Position numbers and translations under genes: made by a program. From a virus, in the IMG/VR virus record IMGVR_UViG_3300042384_000049, positions 1 through 22,500 of that record: a stretch of 22,500 nt of DNA, one strand, 5' to 3'. Under the pieces are notes generated by a model. It was not told the origin of the DNA and made no database searches. It was given only the letters and a program-made list of their open reading frames with translations. Numbering within the stretch: position 1 is the stretch's first letter; each line of letters begins with the position of its first letter. Positions 3,786-20,039 of this stretch are shown piece after piece.

Positions 3786-4514
3786 TTATCCTTCGGTTGT
3801 AAGAATTACGCTGTTTTCTGTTATAATTGTTTCGCCTTCCTCGTCAATAACTGGGGAGGCTCCAGTAGGTGAGATAGTCCCACCAATAATGCCCCCGCCA
3901 CCGTAACGGGCAGAACGGTTCATATAAGTAAATACACGCGGGGATATTACGGTCTGCGTGTGTTGCTCGTCAAGGCGCATCATCTCGTCCGTGAGTATCT
4001 CTGCGGTTTCTGTTTCAGCGATAGCTGCGCGGTCTTGTTGTCCCTCTGCTCGGAGATAGTCCGCATACACGCCATGAGCAATGTATTGAAACCATTCGTA
4101 AGGGATGTTTTCTTCTTCTCCAACATTGTCCCCGTAGTAATCTGGTAAGGCAGCCTTGTATGTCGCCCACACTTCACCAGAGCCTACGGAGTCAACAATA
4201 AGCGTAGCCCCTGCGGAAGTTACGGTGAACTCAAATTCTTGCCCACCAGTGCGCCCATACGGGGGTTGGAGGTAGATTCTCAAGAATGTATCAACCGTAT
4301 CATACCCGAAGGCAGAGTAAGGCAAAACACCATCAATAACATCACGCTTCTCACCAACCTTTAGAAACCTAGTCCAGTAGTTGCTTGCGCGGTATGCCCG
4401 TTGCGCCCTGCGGTTAACCAACGCCTTTACCCTAATAGCCTCAACTACGGAGAATGACATTCCAAGCATTGCTTGGATAAGCCCGAAAAGGTCAGAGTAA
4501 AGGCGAGTTTGCAT
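3786..4514 (-). CDS. Connector/adaptor-like protein, second copy of a tandem pair
   Basis: This 242-residue protein is a clear paralogue of the gene just upstream. Both share ALVNRRAxRAYRASNxWxRF near residue 31 and the identical 17-residue string YIAHGVYADYLRAEGQQ (144-160 here). The two align almost without gaps over about 185 residues. This copy has an extra C-terminal tail of about 30 residues rich in Gly, Ile and Glu. Its start overlaps the upstream stop as TAATG. Mixed helical ends around a beta-rich core and a position after the capsid genes suit a head-tail connector, adaptor or gatekeeper protein, but no family could be confirmed. It ends 5 nt before the fibre gene starts. Confidence 0.7.
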   Translation of the reverse strand: MQTRLYSDLFGLIQAMLGMSFSVVEAIRVKALVNRRAQRAYRASNYWTRFLKVGEKRDVIDGVLPYSAFGYDTVDTFLRIYLQPPYGRTGGQEFEFTVTSAGATLIVDSVGSGEVWATYKAALPDYYGDNVGEEENIPYEWFQYIAHGVYADYLRAEGQQDRAAIAETETAEILTDEMMRLDEQHTQTVISPRVFTYMNRSARYGGGGIIGGTISPTGASPVIDEEGETIITENSVILTTEG

Positions 4515-5158
4515 TAACCTTGTGAAGTTCTTGGAGCAACATTAGCCGTTGCATTTCCACCCACGTTCGTCAGGAATCGTGTTCCAAACGTAATTCCTGC
4601 GCCTTGTTGTTCAATTTGAACAAGCTCATCGTTAAGAATCATTGAGGCCTCTTGGTCTGCCATTTGCGATTTTTCTTGCTGACCTTCAGCACGCAGGTAA
4701 TCGGCATATACTCCATGAGCAATATAATCAAACCATTCGGATGGAACTAGTGGCTGCATAAGAGTTGTTTCGCCATAAACGTCAGATAAAACCTTTTTGT
4801 ATGTAACGAACGCCGCAGCAGGACTTGCACTTGTAATTAACTTAGCTCCCGTAGAATCAATATAGAAATTAAAATCTTGTGGGCTGGTGGTTGTATAAGG
4901 AGCAACAGCTTGAATCTTCAAGAATGTGCCAATCGGGTCAACAGCGGGGGACGCCTGAGTATATGGAACTGTTTTGGTGGTAACAACGCGAGATTCCCCA
5001 ACGGTAATAAATCGAGGCCAATTGTTTGATGCACGATACGCTCGTTTGGCTCGACGGTTCACAAGAGCATTGATCCTTGGAAGTTCAACGGTGGCAAATT
5101 CAACGCCGCAAAGCGATTTGATTTGATCTAGTAGTTCGGTATATGTTTTAGTCGTCAT
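4514..5158 (-). CDS. Connector/adaptor-like protein, first copy of a tandem pair
   Basis: This 214-residue protein is colinear with the next gene. The N-terminal helix region includes INALVNRRAKRAYRASNNW (residues 29-47), a beta-rich middle carries DFNFYIDSTGAKLI, and a C-terminal helix region includes YIAHGVYADYLRAEGQQ (145-161). The last segment ends in a Thr/Asn/Ala-rich tail. The size, the mixed fold and the location between capsid and fibre genes suggest a ring-forming connector or adaptor at the portal vertex, or a tail completion protein. The leader (AATAAAACAAAAAC before ATG) is A-rich without a Shine-Dalgarno box. It follows a small gene whose stop lies 12 nt upstream. Confidence 0.7.
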   Translation of the reverse strand: MTTKTYTELLDQIKSLCGVEFATVELPRINALVNRRAKRAYRASNNWPRFITVGESRVVTTKTVPYTQASPAVDPIGTFLKIQAVAPYTTTSPQDFNFYIDSTGAKLITSASPAAAFVTYKKVLSDVYGETTLMQPLVPSEWFDYIAHGVYADYLRAEGQQEKSQMADQEASMILNDELVQIEQQGAGITFGTRFLTNVGGNATANVAPRTSQG

Positions 5159-8786: not shown

Positions 8787-9029
8787 TTACTTCATTGATT
8801 TGCTTCCGCTACAACGCCATTTTTTACGAGACAGGCTGTTTGGTGAGTTCTTGTCGCTACGCCAATCGCCTTTGATGGCATTGGATCTAGCGCAATAGGC
8901 ATCGCCTTTGGCTGTGCCGGGACGAATCCTGTCACCGCCATCTGCGGCTTTACCAGCCTGCCCATACTTGACAGTCTTCTTGCGTCCAGTGTCAGGATTG
9001 GTGACTACTTTTTTGAACCGCTTCTCCAT
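8787..9029 (-). CDS. Small basic phage protein, DUF6321-like
   Basis: This 80-residue protein begins with a basic part (EKRFKKVVTNPDTGRKKTVK) and a Gly-rich linker, then carries a distinctive C-terminal motif: GDAYCARSNAIKGDW, a Pro/Asn spacer, and SLSRKKWRCSGSKSMK. I recall this YCARS ... LSR.KW.C.GSKS pattern from small proteins near portal genes in other phages (DUF6321-type), not checked by search. The two Cys residues are conserved in my memory of that pattern and might bind metal. Its ATG overlaps the stop of the HNH gene as TAATG, the same junction the portal has with the HNH gene, which suggests it originally followed the portal directly. Function unknown. Confidence 0.75.
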   Translation of the reverse strand: MEKRFKKVVTNPDTGRKKTVKYGQAGKAADGGDRIRPGTAKGDAYCARSNAIKGDWRSDKNSPNSLSRKKWRCSGSKSMK

Positions 9030-9121
9030 TATTGTTGCATCCCTTGGGTAGTCACGCCGCCCATTTGAGCGGGGTCGGTTCCGATACGGCCAATCTCAGC
9101 GTTCTGCATCTGTTGCATTTG
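9029..9121 (-). repeat. Second, diverged copy of the portal 3' end
   Basis: The last ~31 codons of the HNH gene align without gaps to the last ~31 codons of the portal gene at 9742-9834. By hand count about 69 of 93 bases match, and CCCATTTGAGC and CTCAGCGTTCTG (plus-strand reading) are shared exactly. The match includes the stop codon and the overlapping start of the next gene (TAATG). Confidence 0.85.
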
Positions 9122-9742
9122 GTGTGTTCTTATCCAGCTTTCTACCAATGCGTCACGCTCAATGATTTTTAATGGGTGAGGTATATTCGCTCTTTTGTTC
9201 AGGTTGTCAACAGCCCACAATGGCTGCAAGTTTGTGAAATGTGAAAACACAAGCACCTCGGCCTCGTTATTTGCAAGGCTTATTGGGAAAAAATGATCGA
9301 TATGCCACTCCCCTCGATTTGCCCAACTCATCCCTTTGGAGAATTGGTCTTCGATAAATTTTTTGCAAACCCATGGGTCGGCCCCAAGCATTTTCCTTGA
9401 GGAATTTGATCTATTGATTCCTTTTCTCTTCTTTAATGAAGCAAGTCGCATTCTGGTAAGGAACTTGATAGCATAAACAGGATCTGATTTCATGTTTTGT
9501 TTATGTCTATCGACTCGTCTTTTTTTCGCTTCAGGACGACTTTGGCTTTTAAAGCTTCTTTCTCTTATTTTTTTTGCAAAATCTTCATCCGATGCCATTC
9601 TGGCTTTGTTTTTCTCAGATATCGATTTTCTTCTTTTATCGAAAACGTCAGAAGTCACCCAATACTCGCCATCTGGATAAGTGCGACCACGTTGCACAAA
9701 AACAAGATTAGTAACTGGGTTTATGTCTCCGTATTTGGGCAT
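9029..9742 (-). CDS. HNH endonuclease fused to a copy of the portal C-terminus
   Basis: This 237-residue protein is a probable homing endonuclease. The N-terminus (KYGDINPVTNLVFVQRGR, then GEYWVTSDVF) and a basic middle part are followed by the HNH nuclease core: WHIDHFFPIS (residues 146-155, with H147, D149, H150) and FTNLQPLWAVDNLNKRANI (169-187, with N171 and N180). The natural end of such a protein would be near residue 207. The last ~30 residues, including QNAEIGRIGT and PAQMGGV, instead match the end of the portal protein upstream (21 of 26 residues by hand count). Both gene boundaries are TAATG. The coding sequence looks more A/T-rich than the portal. It cuts DNA in the family; its target here, perhaps the portal gene of related phages, is inferred. 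Confidence 0.88.
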   Translation of the reverse strand: MPKYGDINPVTNLVFVQRGRTYPDGEYWVTSDVFDKRRKSISEKNKARMASDEDFAKKIRERSFKSQSRPEAKKRRVDRHKQNMKSDPVYAIKFLTRMRLASLKKRKGINRSNSSRKMLGADPWVCKKFIEDQFSKGMSWANRGEWHIDHFFPISLANNEAEVLVFSHFTNLQPLWAVDNLNKRANIPHPLKIIERDALVESWIRTHQMQQMQNAEIGRIGTDPAQMGGVTTQGMQQ

Positions 9743-9834
9743 TATTGCGCCATGTCTTGTGTTCTTACGCCACCCATTTGAGCCGGGGTTGTTCCAATGC
9801 GACCGATCTCAGCGTTCTGGGCCTGTTGTAGCTG
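9742..9834 (-). repeat. Portal 3' end duplicated downstream of the HNH insertion
   Basis: This is the copy that ends the portal reading frame. It pairs with 9029-9121, about 0.71 kb away in the same orientation. The two copies flank the HNH body like a direct repeat. At roughly three quarters identity they are too different to be a recent duplication within this genome. Confidence 0.85.
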
Positions 9835-11808
9835 AAATTGGTAAGCCTCCATGTATTTCTGGAGACGACCACCAAACGCTTCGTCGGACTGTGCGCGTTG
9901 CATGATGTCCGGTTGCTGGACATACGCCTGCACCATCTGCATTGCGATCTGTGCGCCGTTGGGTTGCGCGGGAACCTCGATACCAGCAAAGATCTTCGCG
10001 AGGTCATCAGTGACGTTCTTGGCGACCTTCTGCTGAGCTTCCTCGACTGGTTGCAGAACGTAGTCCGCAAAGATCGGGTTGATGCTCGATGCGGTGAACT
10101 CAAGGAGCTTGTTGACATCTAGAACGCCATTGCGATCAAGTTGAACAAGTGACACCATGTTCTTGAGTTGCGTCTCCGCAGTCTCTGGGTCAGTGGTCAA
10201 CGAGTCAAATGACACCGTAATGCTGAAGTTCTCGTCGGGGCTACCCTTGGTCATCGTCTGGGGGTTGGGATTGCCAGTGACTTGGAAGAAGACCTCGTCC
10301 GGCCCCATGCGCTGATACAGCTTCCACGCCATCGTCAAAACATCACGGACATGATCGAGGAACTTGCCAATGTAGAATTGTTGACGCGCAGCCGTGAGCG
10401 GGTTCGTGAGATCAAGACCAACGGCGCGGTCTGCTTGCGCTCGCATAGACATCTCAGACTCAATGGAACCTTGGTCCATTTGGGGAACTGGTCCCCACGC
10501 AATCTCGCCAAGACGACGATAAGGAACGCGACGGCCCGGACCCCAATCGGAAGGAGGACGGCCAGCAGGATGCATCAGCGGCGGCAAGGTGGCCAACGAG
10601 GCTCGATCAATACGGCTATCACGTTCAGTTTTGATCTGCATTTGCGGACCACGGAGAATGTCGGAGAATGTTTGCACTTCATACATCCGCCTTTGGTCGT
10701 TCGCCAGTCGCGTTACAATGAACGGGTAGTCATCGTATCCATTGAGAAGCTCATGCTTTGCGTAGCCATCTGTAGTCGGGTGGAACACGGTGCAGTAGAT
10801 GCCCTCAGAACCGTCCTCTTCGTCAATCAGACGCTGGTAGCCATAGACCACCATAACAAGGTCGTTGTCGTCAGTGATAGGCAAGCGCGTCTGAGTCTTC
10901 ACCTTCTCCCCATCAAGATACATGGAGTCTTTCCCACGAAGATTTGAGATAGCGTGATCGACCCACTTCCGATCCCATCCCTCATTGGTGACTTTCTTCT
11001 CAAGCTCCTGAGCAGTCAGGAACGTGCGCCAAAAGATGTATGGAGCGCGTTGAGGGTCGGAAACATACGGAGGGAAGATGACCTCTCCATCCGGGGCGCA
11101 CGAATAAACAATCGGGCAATCAACGGTTTGACGAGGGAGGGGGATTTCAGCCATCCCGGTCTTCCGCATATCTCGGATTGCCTTCTTAGCTCGTTTGTTC
11201 GACAGGTCGGGGAATCCTTGTTGGATCAATCCCGTGAGCATCTCGTCATCGTTCCCGTCAATAATAAGGTTCGCTAGATCAGGGGATTGTTGGGCAATTT
11301 GGTCGATGGTGACTTGTTGCAGATATGTTCTTTTTTCTCGCTTCCATCCAACATAGGATACCATAATCCCCTTCTCTAGCAAATAGTTCGCACCCAACTC
11401 CATTTGGTTCTTGAAGTCAGGAATGTAGGTCGAGCGCATCCACTTAAGGAACGACGACACAACAGAAGCTCGCGGCATTGATGCCATAGACGTTGGGAAC
11501 GCCTTGATGTGGCTGCGCTGGAGGGCTTGGTCAAACAGAGACACATACATGTCAATCCGCTCACCAACCACGTTAACTTCTTGATCTGAAGCACCTTGCC
11601 ACGGAAATGCGTTTGCTCCGTTCTTGCGAAGATCGTCAGACTTGCCGTCCCAGATATTGCGCCGATCATTATATGACCTCAAGCAAGACTCAAAATAGTA
11701 TTCAAGATCGAGCAGGCATGTGTCATAAGCATTGGTCAGCACTGCAATATCAGGCTCTTTGTCTGCATAGACAAGCGACTCGTCTTCAATTTCTTGGGAT
11801 TCGATCAT
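9742..11808 (-). CDS. Portal protein (head-tail connector)
   Basis: This 688-residue protein forms the portal ring through which DNA enters and leaves the head. The frame is open from 11853, but ATG 11808-11806 is preferred because it overlaps the previous stop as ATGA. Typical portal features are the N-terminal part with NAFPWQGASDQEVNVV, the middle YDDYPFIVTRLANDQRRMYE followed by DILRGPQMQIKTERDSRIDR, then LPPLMHPAGRPPSDWGPGRR. A long helical C-terminal part is rich in Gln and Ala. The C-terminus QNAEIGRIGT.PAQMGGV also appears at the end of the adjacent HNH protein. The size fits podovirus-like or long-portal families. It is two genes downstream of the large terminase, as expected. Confidence 0.88.
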   Translation of the reverse strand: MIESQEIEDESLVYADKEPDIAVLTNAYDTCLLDLEYYFESCLRSYNDRRNIWDGKSDDLRKNGANAFPWQGASDQEVNVVGERIDMYVSLFDQALQRSHIKAFPTSMASMPRASVVSSFLKWMRSTYIPDFKNQMELGANYLLEKGIMVSYVGWKREKRTYLQQVTIDQIAQQSPDLANLIIDGNDDEMLTGLIQQGFPDLSNKRAKKAIRDMRKTGMAEIPLPRQTVDCPIVYSCAPDGEVIFPPYVSDPQRAPYIFWRTFLTAQELEKKVTNEGWDRKWVDHAISNLRGKDSMYLDGEKVKTQTRLPITDDNDLVMVVYGYQRLIDEEDGSEGIYCTVFHPTTDGYAKHELLNGYDDYPFIVTRLANDQRRMYEVQTFSDILRGPQMQIKTERDSRIDRASLATLPPLMHPAGRPPSDWGPGRRVPYRRLGEIAWGPVPQMDQGSIESEMSMRAQADRAVGLDLTNPLTAARQQFYIGKFLDHVRDVLTMAWKLYQRMGPDEVFFQVTGNPNPQTMTKGSPDENFSITVSFDSLTTDPETAETQLKNMVSLVQLDRNGVLDVNKLLEFTASSINPIFADYVLQPVEEAQQKVAKNVTDDLAKIFAGIEVPAQPNGAQIAMQMVQAYVQQPDIMQRAQSDEAFGGRLQKYMEAYQFQLQQAQNAEIGRIGTTPAQMGGVRTQDMAQ

Positions 11809-12092
11809 GATGCGTATTCGTAAAAGTCTTCGGGGTCGGCAGATACTAAGCACACTTTGATGCGCTTGCCAACAAGTTTATTTGATAGGCGGGAAGGGCA
11901 TTTTACCGGAACCGCTAGCCCATCCATGCGGACGATAACCCAGCTCGGGTTGTTGCAAACACGCATAACAATGAAATCATCATCAATTTGCTGCTCGATA
12001 AGGCTATCAAGACTGCATGGTGACTCGTCAATAATTAGCGTTTTCTTTGCAGGTCGCCCCCGTTTTGCTGCTTTAGCTGCTTGTTTTTTCAT
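11805..12092 (-). CDS. Small hypothetical protein between terminase and portal
   Basis: The start at ATG 12092, 1 nt after the terminase TAG, gives 95 residues; the frame stays open to 12215 but that would overlap the terminase. A GGGGG run 9 nt before the ATG could act as a weak ribosome-binding site. The protein begins with a basic stretch (KKQAAKAAKRGRPAKKTLII, containing an AT-hook-like RGRPAKK), then an acidic segment (DSLIEQQIDDDF) and a compact domain with FIVMRVCNNPSWVIVRMDG, PVKCPSRLSNKLVGKRIKVC. The AT-hook-like core suggests possible DNA contact, by analogy only. Its stop overlaps the portal start (ATGA), linking the two in translation. Confidence 0.7.
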   Translation of the reverse strand: MKKQAAKAAKRGRPAKKTLIIDESPCSLDSLIEQQIDDDFIVMRVCNNPSWVIVRMDGLAVPVKCPSRLSNKLVGKRIKVCLVSADPEDFYEYAS

Positions 12093-19235: not shown

Positions 19236-20039
19236 TTAGTCTTTCATGTAGCTGAGTTTTTCTTGATCCGCCCAAGGGACAAGAGATGAAATGTTTTCAA
19301 TAGTCATATTGAGTTTTGGGCAGTGAACAAACTTAGGAGACTGTGGATTCCGATTGATGCAACTAGTGCATGCGTGAACATAATCAACATTATGGAGTTT
19401 GTCCACCTTCTCGCCCCAAACGCCATCTAGTTTTTCGTAACGGTCTGAATCGTATGGGACATTGTTACTTTCAATGTATTCCCAGATATCCGCATGAGTC
19501 CAGTCTCGAAGCGGGAACATCATAGTCGCTTGCTCCATAAGCACCCTAGATTCAATCCGTGTTCCAGCATCTCCTCCAAGAATTGGATCAGAATCGCAAC
19601 CTTTGTGGCCGATCCATAAACAATCAAATTCAGGGACTTCAAGATAGTGTTGTTTTGGACGCTTAAGGATATCCAAGGCGCAAACAAACTTAGCGTCACT
19701 TGCAGGCTCAGTAATCCCAGTTGGACAAGTCAAGATGGTTGAGTTTACTTTGTAGTGATTCTGGACCTCCCATTCATCTCCTTCTTGTTGGAATGCGGAT
19801 TGATATGGATGCCATGAATAAATAAGTAACTCCCAGTCTTGGGTGATCTTATCGTGAAACTTGTATTTAGATGGTTGCCATGGTTCACGAAAAAATACCA
19901 ATGGCAAATCAATTCCCATACCACGCATGATATGCAACAATACCATGCTGTCCTTGCCTCCAGACCAACAAATCATTCCTTTTGGGAAGTGTTTTGCGCC
20001 AGATGCAATTAGCTCTTTTGTTTTTTCAAGTTTCGTCAT
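19236..20039 (-). CDS. PAPS-reductase-family PP-loop enzyme
   Basis: This 267-residue protein has the PP-loop SGGKDS (residues 26-31) that binds the nucleotide phosphates in PAPS reductases and ATP sulfurylases, and the family signature FPLRDWTHADIWEYIESNNV (175-194). Eight cysteines are present, including C105, C120, C224, C227 and C240; the last three (CTSC ... C) could bind an iron-sulfur cluster or zinc. Family members reduce PAPS to sulfite, activate sulfate or act in sulfur-based nucleic-acid modification; the substrate here is unknown. The start overlaps the upstream stop as TAATG, and the next virion gene begins 3 nt after its end, so it is embedded in the late structural operon rather than in a metabolic cassette. 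Confidence 0.85.
   Translation of the reverse strand: MTKLEKTKELIASGAKHFPKGMICWSGGKDSMVLLHIMRGMGIDLPLVFFREPWQPSKYKFHDKITQDWELLIYSWHPYQSAFQQEGDEWEVQNHYKVNSTILTCPTGITEPASDAKFVCALDILKRPKQHYLEVPEFDCLWIGHKGCDSDPILGGDAGTRIESRVLMEQATMMFPLRDWTHADIWEYIESNNVPYDSDRYEKLDGVWGEKVDKLHNVDYVHACTSCINRNPQSPKFVHCPKLNMTIENISSLVPWADQEKLSYMKD

Follow-up and report, generated by a model that had tools for sequence, protein, structure and literature searches.

How does the end of an essential phage gene come to be present twice, the second time as the end of an adjoining nuclease gene? The question is raised by the window, by which we mean the whole 22,500-nucleotide stretch of viral DNA analysed here, in which a portal gene, a predicted HNH endonuclease gene and the gene downstream of it all lie on the minus strand (Table 1). 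We find that the window very probably carries a mobile endonuclease cassette, the unit of which is a replacement portal end together with a nuclease gene. Among related phages such cassettes have inserted in a targeted manner, have replaced the portal end and displaced the native one, and have been transferred between genomic backgrounds.

Table 1. Features of the portal-nuclease region, with positions in the window.
Feature	Position	Strand	Basis or remark
Portal gene, recipient of the cassette	9742-11853	-	open reading frame; tblastn to annotated portals; relatives in viral contigs
Donor (foreign) portal tail, last 31 codons including stop	9742-9834	-	match to displaced tail; tree
Predicted HNH endonuclease gene (type A), 237 aa	9029-9742	-	motif; PHROG 1035; AF2 model
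Nuclease body	9122-9742	-	99.5% identical in L014/L016; 62–63% in the A' group
Displaced native portal tail, forming the nuclease C-terminus	9029-9121	-	98% identical to L013 native tail
TAATG stop/start overlap, portal/HNH	9740-9744	-	sequence
TAATG stop/start overlap, HNH/next gene	9027-9031	-	sequence
Direct repeat copy 1, CAATAATG, 5' edge of nuclease gene	9740-9747	-	
Direct repeat copy 2, CAATAATG, 3' edge of nuclease gene	9027-9034	-	also the pre-insertion stop/start overlap with the next gene
Portal codon -9, before QNAE	9844-9846	-	adjoins A/A' insertion point; codon census
Resident downstream gene, MEKRF..., 80 aa	8787-9029	-	

The two portal ends of the window

The portal assignment is based on the adjoining terminase and major capsid protein genes and on tblastn matches to annotated portals (22% identity, E = 2e-22). 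As predicted originally from the letters alone, the end of the portal gene recurs as the end of the HNH gene, and the figures given then are exact: 69 of 93 bases and 21 of the last 26 residues are the same (24 of 30 over the longer comparison), with TAATG on both sides. When the HNH gene is compared with the window by blastn, the second tail copy is found with E = 2e-12, and the next best match has an E value of 0.56. The tail identity breaks off sharply at QxQQxQNAE, in the tract QxQQxQNAEIGRIG.... Ten of the matching codons differ silently between the two tails, and the copies are thus not recent, being either old or of different origin. It may be that the TAATG overlap couples translation of the nuclease to that of the portal.

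The tract in common that contains the window's donor tail reaches approximately 120 nt before the portal stop. This tail is 90–97% identical to that of L014 and 72–77% identical to those of L023 and L004, although the portal bodies of L023 and L004, unlike their tails, are mostly 90–100% identical to the window near the tail. In the insert-free phages L006, L023 and L036 the resident downstream gene lies directly 3' of the native tail.

Several nuclease types at one gene end

We identified 322 IMG/VR stretches that encode relatives of the portal; the best 80 from each of three portal scans were taken, and together with the nuclease scans these gave 188 loci with a complete portal 3' end, including the window and the GenBank phage C75C1. 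The 188 loci represent 116 distinct portal 3' ends (115 besides the window). No host or prophage copy was found in a scan of genome contigs with the portal. Portals without a nuclease gene behind them mostly end in a native tail, GG(V/M)(T/Q)TQGM(Q/E)Q, and portals followed by a nuclease gene end otherwise, with IRTQDMAQ, INLQDMNQQ, INTQNMSQS or INLQNMDQQ. At all 13 loci with nuclease inserts the native tail is present at the end of the nuclease reading frame; a displaced tail is present at only five of the 102 other loci.

The nucleases fall into several types. Type A, an HNH protein, is present in the window, L003, L014 and L016; type A', also HNH and 62–66% identical to A, in L057, L064, L067, L071, L088 and others; type B, another HNH protein of 278 aa, in L024 and L038; and type C, in L047, is of the endonuclease VII type (Pfam PF02945, Endonuclease_7, E = 3.5e-22). 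The mode is not confined to the one HNH gene of the original prediction, since a second HNH protein and an endonuclease VII-type protein do likewise. The displaced native tails are about 31 codons long with types A and A', 13 with B and seven with C, and there are thus three insertion points in one gene end. The A, B and C nucleases have a short N-terminal module in common, GDxN..LVF...GExWVT, and between A and C this module is 35% identical (E = 1e-9 for that pair). Because the A or A' arrangement is present in more than ten contigs of different IMG data sets, it is not an artefact of one assembly.

The type A nuclease is a predicted HNH homing endonuclease, as judged from motif and modelled fold. 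Its DH..N..N motif (WHIDHFFP...N..N) is conserved over 60 relatives, in which H150, N171 and N180 are invariant and D149 nearly so. The protein matches PHROG 1035 (endonuclease VII; E = 4e-9); it has no match in Pfam, Endonuclease_7 included, and no CxxC pairs in its sequence. An AF2 model built with 60 sequences has a pLDDT of 81 (compared with only 60 from 11 sequences) and contains a beta-beta-alpha HNH core at residues 146–183, with the elements E146–150, E172–176 and H177–183. Foldseek matches to the PDB are weak, with a best E value of 0.26 (Cas9 HNH), and the top rows are mostly of the HNH type; with VIA-align the HNH rows have Z scores of about 4, which is not above unrelated rows, and a PDB sequence search with the HNH profile gave no credible match. 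As is typical of HNH homing endonucleases, the gene has a sporadic distribution and has been transferred laterally between alleles with and without it.

Occupied and empty sites

Natural pairs of occupied and empty sites show the insertion of the cassette directly. L057, which carries an HNH gene, and L191, which has none, are without mismatch over 1,886 nt of left flank, the identity extending up to a point 29 nt ahead of the QNAE codons; in L057 the displaced tail, of 96 nt, is the same as the native tail of L191 and is followed by 404 nt of right flank, again with no mismatch, and the only addition to L057 is the new tail and the HNH gene. A second pair, L071 and L151, lies in another background and has no mismatches over approximately 1,090 nt on the left, with 96 of 96 positions of the tail identical. 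In both pairs the altered stretch starts 28–31 nt before QNAE, the displaced tail starts at TTCCAG, 18 nt before QNAE, and some 10–13 nt of recipient sequence has been exchanged, all else having been added. These pairs bear out the proposal that a nuclease gene entered the portal end with a donor terminus, the native end becoming fused to the nuclease. None of the loci is an isogenic empty partner of the window, the best body being that of L004 (95%), and the A' phages L088 and L092–L094 have no close empty relative among them.

L057 and L071 have portal bodies with 81% identity, but identical donor tails (100%) and almost identical nucleases; one cassette occupies one insertion point in portals that are about 71–81% identical. 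More generally, phages whose portal bodies have approximately 70–88% identity, and whose right flanks diverge or are unrelated, have cassettes that are 93–100% identical. For example, in sliding comparisons of L057, L064 and L088 the identity is 93–100% from -120 to about +600, with approximately 62–92% in the body and 15–82% downstream; L024 and L038 are 98–100% identical from -60 to +780; and the window and L014 are 97–100% identical through the nuclease as far as +600, their downstream flanks being divergent.

Separate histories of portal tails and bodies

At loci with close native relatives, which are all cases except the L088/L092–L094 group, the displaced tail has an identity of 0.88–0.94 to the tails of the six nearest bodies, compared with 0.65–0.74 for the portal-fused tail; the background for this comparison in ordinary phages is 0.85 (sd 0.05, minimum 0.73). 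In L092–L094, where the neighbours are distant, the two tails have much the same identity to them (displaced 0.72, portal-fused 0.69).

In a tree of the tails, 16 donor-type tails form two clusters (two changes, compared with 15.2 in shuffles), and six displaced tails are scattered among native tails. Separate placement of the window's two tails gives the result that the original prediction had anticipated: the portal-fused tail groups with other donor tails (support 100/99) and the HNH-fused tail with the native tails of close relatives. On the tree of portal bodies, a clade of A-tail carriers is rejected with p = 3e-33 and one of A' carriers with p = 3e-27, and the INLQ tails require 11 changes, compared with 11.6 in shuffles. 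Since the donor tails are clustered while their phages are dispersed on the body tree, tail and body travel separately.

Alternative explanations

The portal 3' end might instead be a recombination hot spot at which passenger genes accrete, a homologous crossover in the portal being combined with an illegitimate junction in the native tail; any gene could enter by this route, and the nuclease would be one passenger that need not cut. Many different genes do lie behind the portal in relatives, displaced tails are found behind apparently non-nuclease reading frames in L009, L030, L059, L075 and L150 (family searches were run on the L009 and L150 frames only), and there are donor-type tails without a nuclease in L022, L019 and L005. 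We nonetheless consider this explanation unlikely: displaced tails are universal with nucleases (13 of 13) and rare otherwise (5 of 102), three nuclease types have arrived at one place, and the presence of one nuclease at an identical nucleotide in different backgrounds, with flanks intact to within about 13 nt, indicates a targeted event. The displaced tails behind non-nuclease frames do show that extra genes in general can enter at the portal 3' end, and that not every displaced tail implies homing; ordinary recombination may lie behind part of the pattern.

Three further explanations concern the duplicated tail itself. That the portal end was doubled locally when the HNH gene arrived, with divergence of the copies in place, would accord with their being adjacent and in frame, and the original prediction had regarded a sister pairing of the two tails as the sign of such an event; however, an AU test rejects the pairing (p = 0.012), displaced tails are identical to those of empty relatives while the portal tails are only about 71–74% so, and the ten silent differences also speak against it, and we find a late duplication scarcely credible. 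We attach just as little weight to a group I intron or intein, by which the stretch from donor tail to nuclease would be removed and the portal made with its native tail; nucleases of this kind often reside in introns or inteins, but the window has no Rfam match at the gathering level, relaxed levels gave no credible match in 8900–10000, and the donor tail has its own stop and is a complete, conserved portal terminus, for which an intron would have no use. It is also very improbable that the displaced tail is a working domain of the nuclease, for example one that docks to the portal or to packaging proteins. The tail is in frame wherever a locus of type A, A', B or C has a complete nuclease reading frame, but it is 31, 13 or seven codons long depending on the insertion point, its sequence follows the recipient phage rather than the nuclease, and its last 20 residues are disordered in the AF2 model. 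Moreover, it is absent from distant relatives: copies of an upstream gene end were found in none of 62 tests on 69 distant HNH loci, with a test that is strongly positive for A, A' and L075, weakly so for the 13-codon cases and L150, and that misses a seven-codon tail, the L047 control falling below its shuffles. The concern raised at the outset, that unrelated HNH proteins might carry such a tail as a matter of course, is not borne out by these loci.

A model for gain, immunity and loss

We therefore return to a mobile cassette composed of portal end and nuclease gene. At occupied loci the portal frame is read into the tail brought by the cassette and terminates at that tail's stop codon, on which the nuclease frame begins (TAATG or ATGA); the native tail forms the nuclease C-terminus and ends, as it did originally, where its stop overlaps the start of the next gene. 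We propose that during co-infection the nuclease would cut the uninterrupted native tail of a nuclease-free phage, and that repair of the break from the donor would copy tail and nuclease into the cut genome; these steps are modelled on the cut-and-repair mobility of homing endonucleases described in PMC2988022. A cut or nick is predicted to fall close to GGCAGTATCAATTCCAG in native portal 3' ends. The breakpoints lie no more than about 13 nt from where the cassette inserts, which suggests a nearby cut and very short co-conversion.

The occupied allele would be spared in both of its tails, as the site in the displaced tail is missing its 5' part and the donor tail would be recoded at the insertion point. 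A candidate for such recoding is codon -9, which lies within the exchanged stretch. In a codon census every donor-type tail of the A, A', C, D and INLQ classes has Ala (GCN) at this codon, and Gln is present in 85 of the 88 native portals as well as in both carriers of type B, the insertion point of which is further downstream. This association is suggestive rather than proof, because the donor tails are related by descent. All five donor tail classes (L024, L038, L047, L009 and the window) also have Asp or Asn in place of the Gly of QGM at codon 26, a change common to these classes though their inserts differ. We considered this as an immunity change for type A and rejected it, as the displaced tail keeps the Gly and would be cut; the change suggests either one origin of the donor tails or a common constraint, and shared ancestry is a likelier explanation than immunity.

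Later recombination between the two tails, or between the short repeats at the cassette edges, would delete the nuclease while a foreign or chimeric portal end stays. L022 and L041 have one and the same portal sequence for more than 1,140 nt, after which L022 has a type A donor tail (100% identical to that of L016), joined at CAATAATG to a downstream flank with one mismatch in 46 from that of the window. This joint is the exact 8-bp direct repeat that flanks the window's nuclease gene, and a deletion between the window's two copies would yield the L022 arrangement. L147 has no nuclease gene and is 98.4% identical over 1,500 nt to the carrier L064; its tail is chimeric, switching from donor to native type at CAAG, and L062 and L074 are similar. 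Donor-type tails without a nuclease, some of them chimeric, thus look like footprints of loss, and a phage that has gained and lost a cassette can be left with a portal end that is foreign or mixed. On balance we favor a general reading in which these are phage homing elements that move as a nuclease together with a replacement gene terminus, in which several nuclease types use one essential gene, and in which gain and loss, repeated through recombination between the two termini, would steadily rewrite the portal C-terminus irrespective of the phylogeny of the remainder of the gene.

Relation to known elements

The known escapes of a selfish gene in an essential gene are self-splicing introns, inteins, intergenic sites and working split genes; gene-end replacement is a further way for such a gene to spare its host. 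The original prediction could name no such mode from the literature, but it is documented in fungal mitochondria, where an endonuclease reading frame with a foreign carboxy-terminal segment generates a hybrid gene (Beaudet et al. 2013, PMC3630166). These mORF elements are found in Glomus atp6, atp9, cox2 and nad3, and an earlier case in Allomyces macrogynus atp6 is cited; the downstream native end is 91–98% identical to close relatives, vs 64–81% for the inserted end (PMC3630166). The elements described here resemble them in the position of the endonuclease frame in the 3' part of an essential gene, in an inserted end that is in frame with the gene core and divergent from the native one, and in a native end that lies downstream and is closest to element-free relatives. 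They differ in that the fungal elements reside in mtDNA and encode LAGLIDADG or GIY-YIG proteins, whereas those here are in dsDNA phages with HNH and endonuclease VII-type proteins; in the stop/start overlaps at both junctions of the window's element; in the in-frame fusion of the native tail to the nuclease; and in the use of one gene end by several nuclease types. Common descent with the mitochondrial elements was considered and rejected, as type A matches PHROG 1035 and an HNH motif and type C matches Pfam Endonuclease_7; the elements are alike in their working but of another family.

Among phage nucleases, the available portions of PMC2988022 and PMC6083498 describe T4 Seg and Mob proteins, Aeh1 MobE (in nrdA) and F-CphI, which likewise lie beside or inside essential genes, have the break-repair mobility with flank co-conversion that we propose here and, for F-CphI, use an endonuclease VII motif as does the type C nuclease; those nucleases, however, are intergenic or intron-borne, or interrupt a gene whose two parts still work (nrdA, gene 60), and no replacement of a gene end is described there. 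Nuclease genes also border exchanges near terminase, capsid and other essential genes in ICP1 and other phages, although there they involve introns and large bracketed islands rather than a duplicated gene end (PMC10448857, in part). For T4-like phages, ICP1 and Skunavirus, the portions available of PMC2988022, PMC10448857 and PMC12724721 report introns, inteins, split genes and intergenic nucleases, and make no mention there of a replaced gene end. We found no phage precedent for gene-end replacement in the open-licence literature; the process is known in fungal mitochondria, and the phage version with unrelated nucleases is new as far as we have found.

The integrases of tRNA-gene islands, and that of phage 21 in icd, restore the 3' end of their target gene. 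As in those systems, the element here brings a replacement 3' end for an essential gene and displaces the original; the integrases, however, are site-specific recombinases that act at attachment sites, and the cassette here has a nuclease and no recombinase. Phages that offer naturally filled and empty sites, with no other difference in over 2 kb of sequence, allow the mechanism to be tested directly, and in a simple system. The elements also show that a core phage gene can have its end exchanged while its body stays, which matters for portal phylogenies and for annotation, in which the nuclease C-terminus should be read as a portal fossil and not as a domain.

Additional features

The apparently non-nuclease reading frames with a displaced tail behind them include one of 100 aa in L075 (MAEKRKTYD) and one of 354 aa in L150 (MTIAERI). 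Short basic proteins that end in RGT(Q/S/D)SS..RK(L/V/I)(I/V)K form a family that recurs behind the portal at many loci (L021, L030, L031, L039, L066 and L075). L046 (9382-10099, minus strand) and L047 (7776-8367, minus strand) have a further HNH gene downstream of the portal and on the opposite strand, with an N-terminal module, DGxxFWxYxKKSxxxxxWxxW, of a kind seen in the portal-end nucleases. Elsewhere in the window, two adjacent minus-strand genes in the tail region (3786-4514 and 4514-5158) encode similar proteins (..NRRA(Q/K)RAYRASN.W.RF..VGE.R.V..), a tandem duplication, and a minus-strand gene among the virion genes (19236-20039) encodes a putative PP-loop protein with an SGGKDS motif, which by eye is PAPS-reductase-like.
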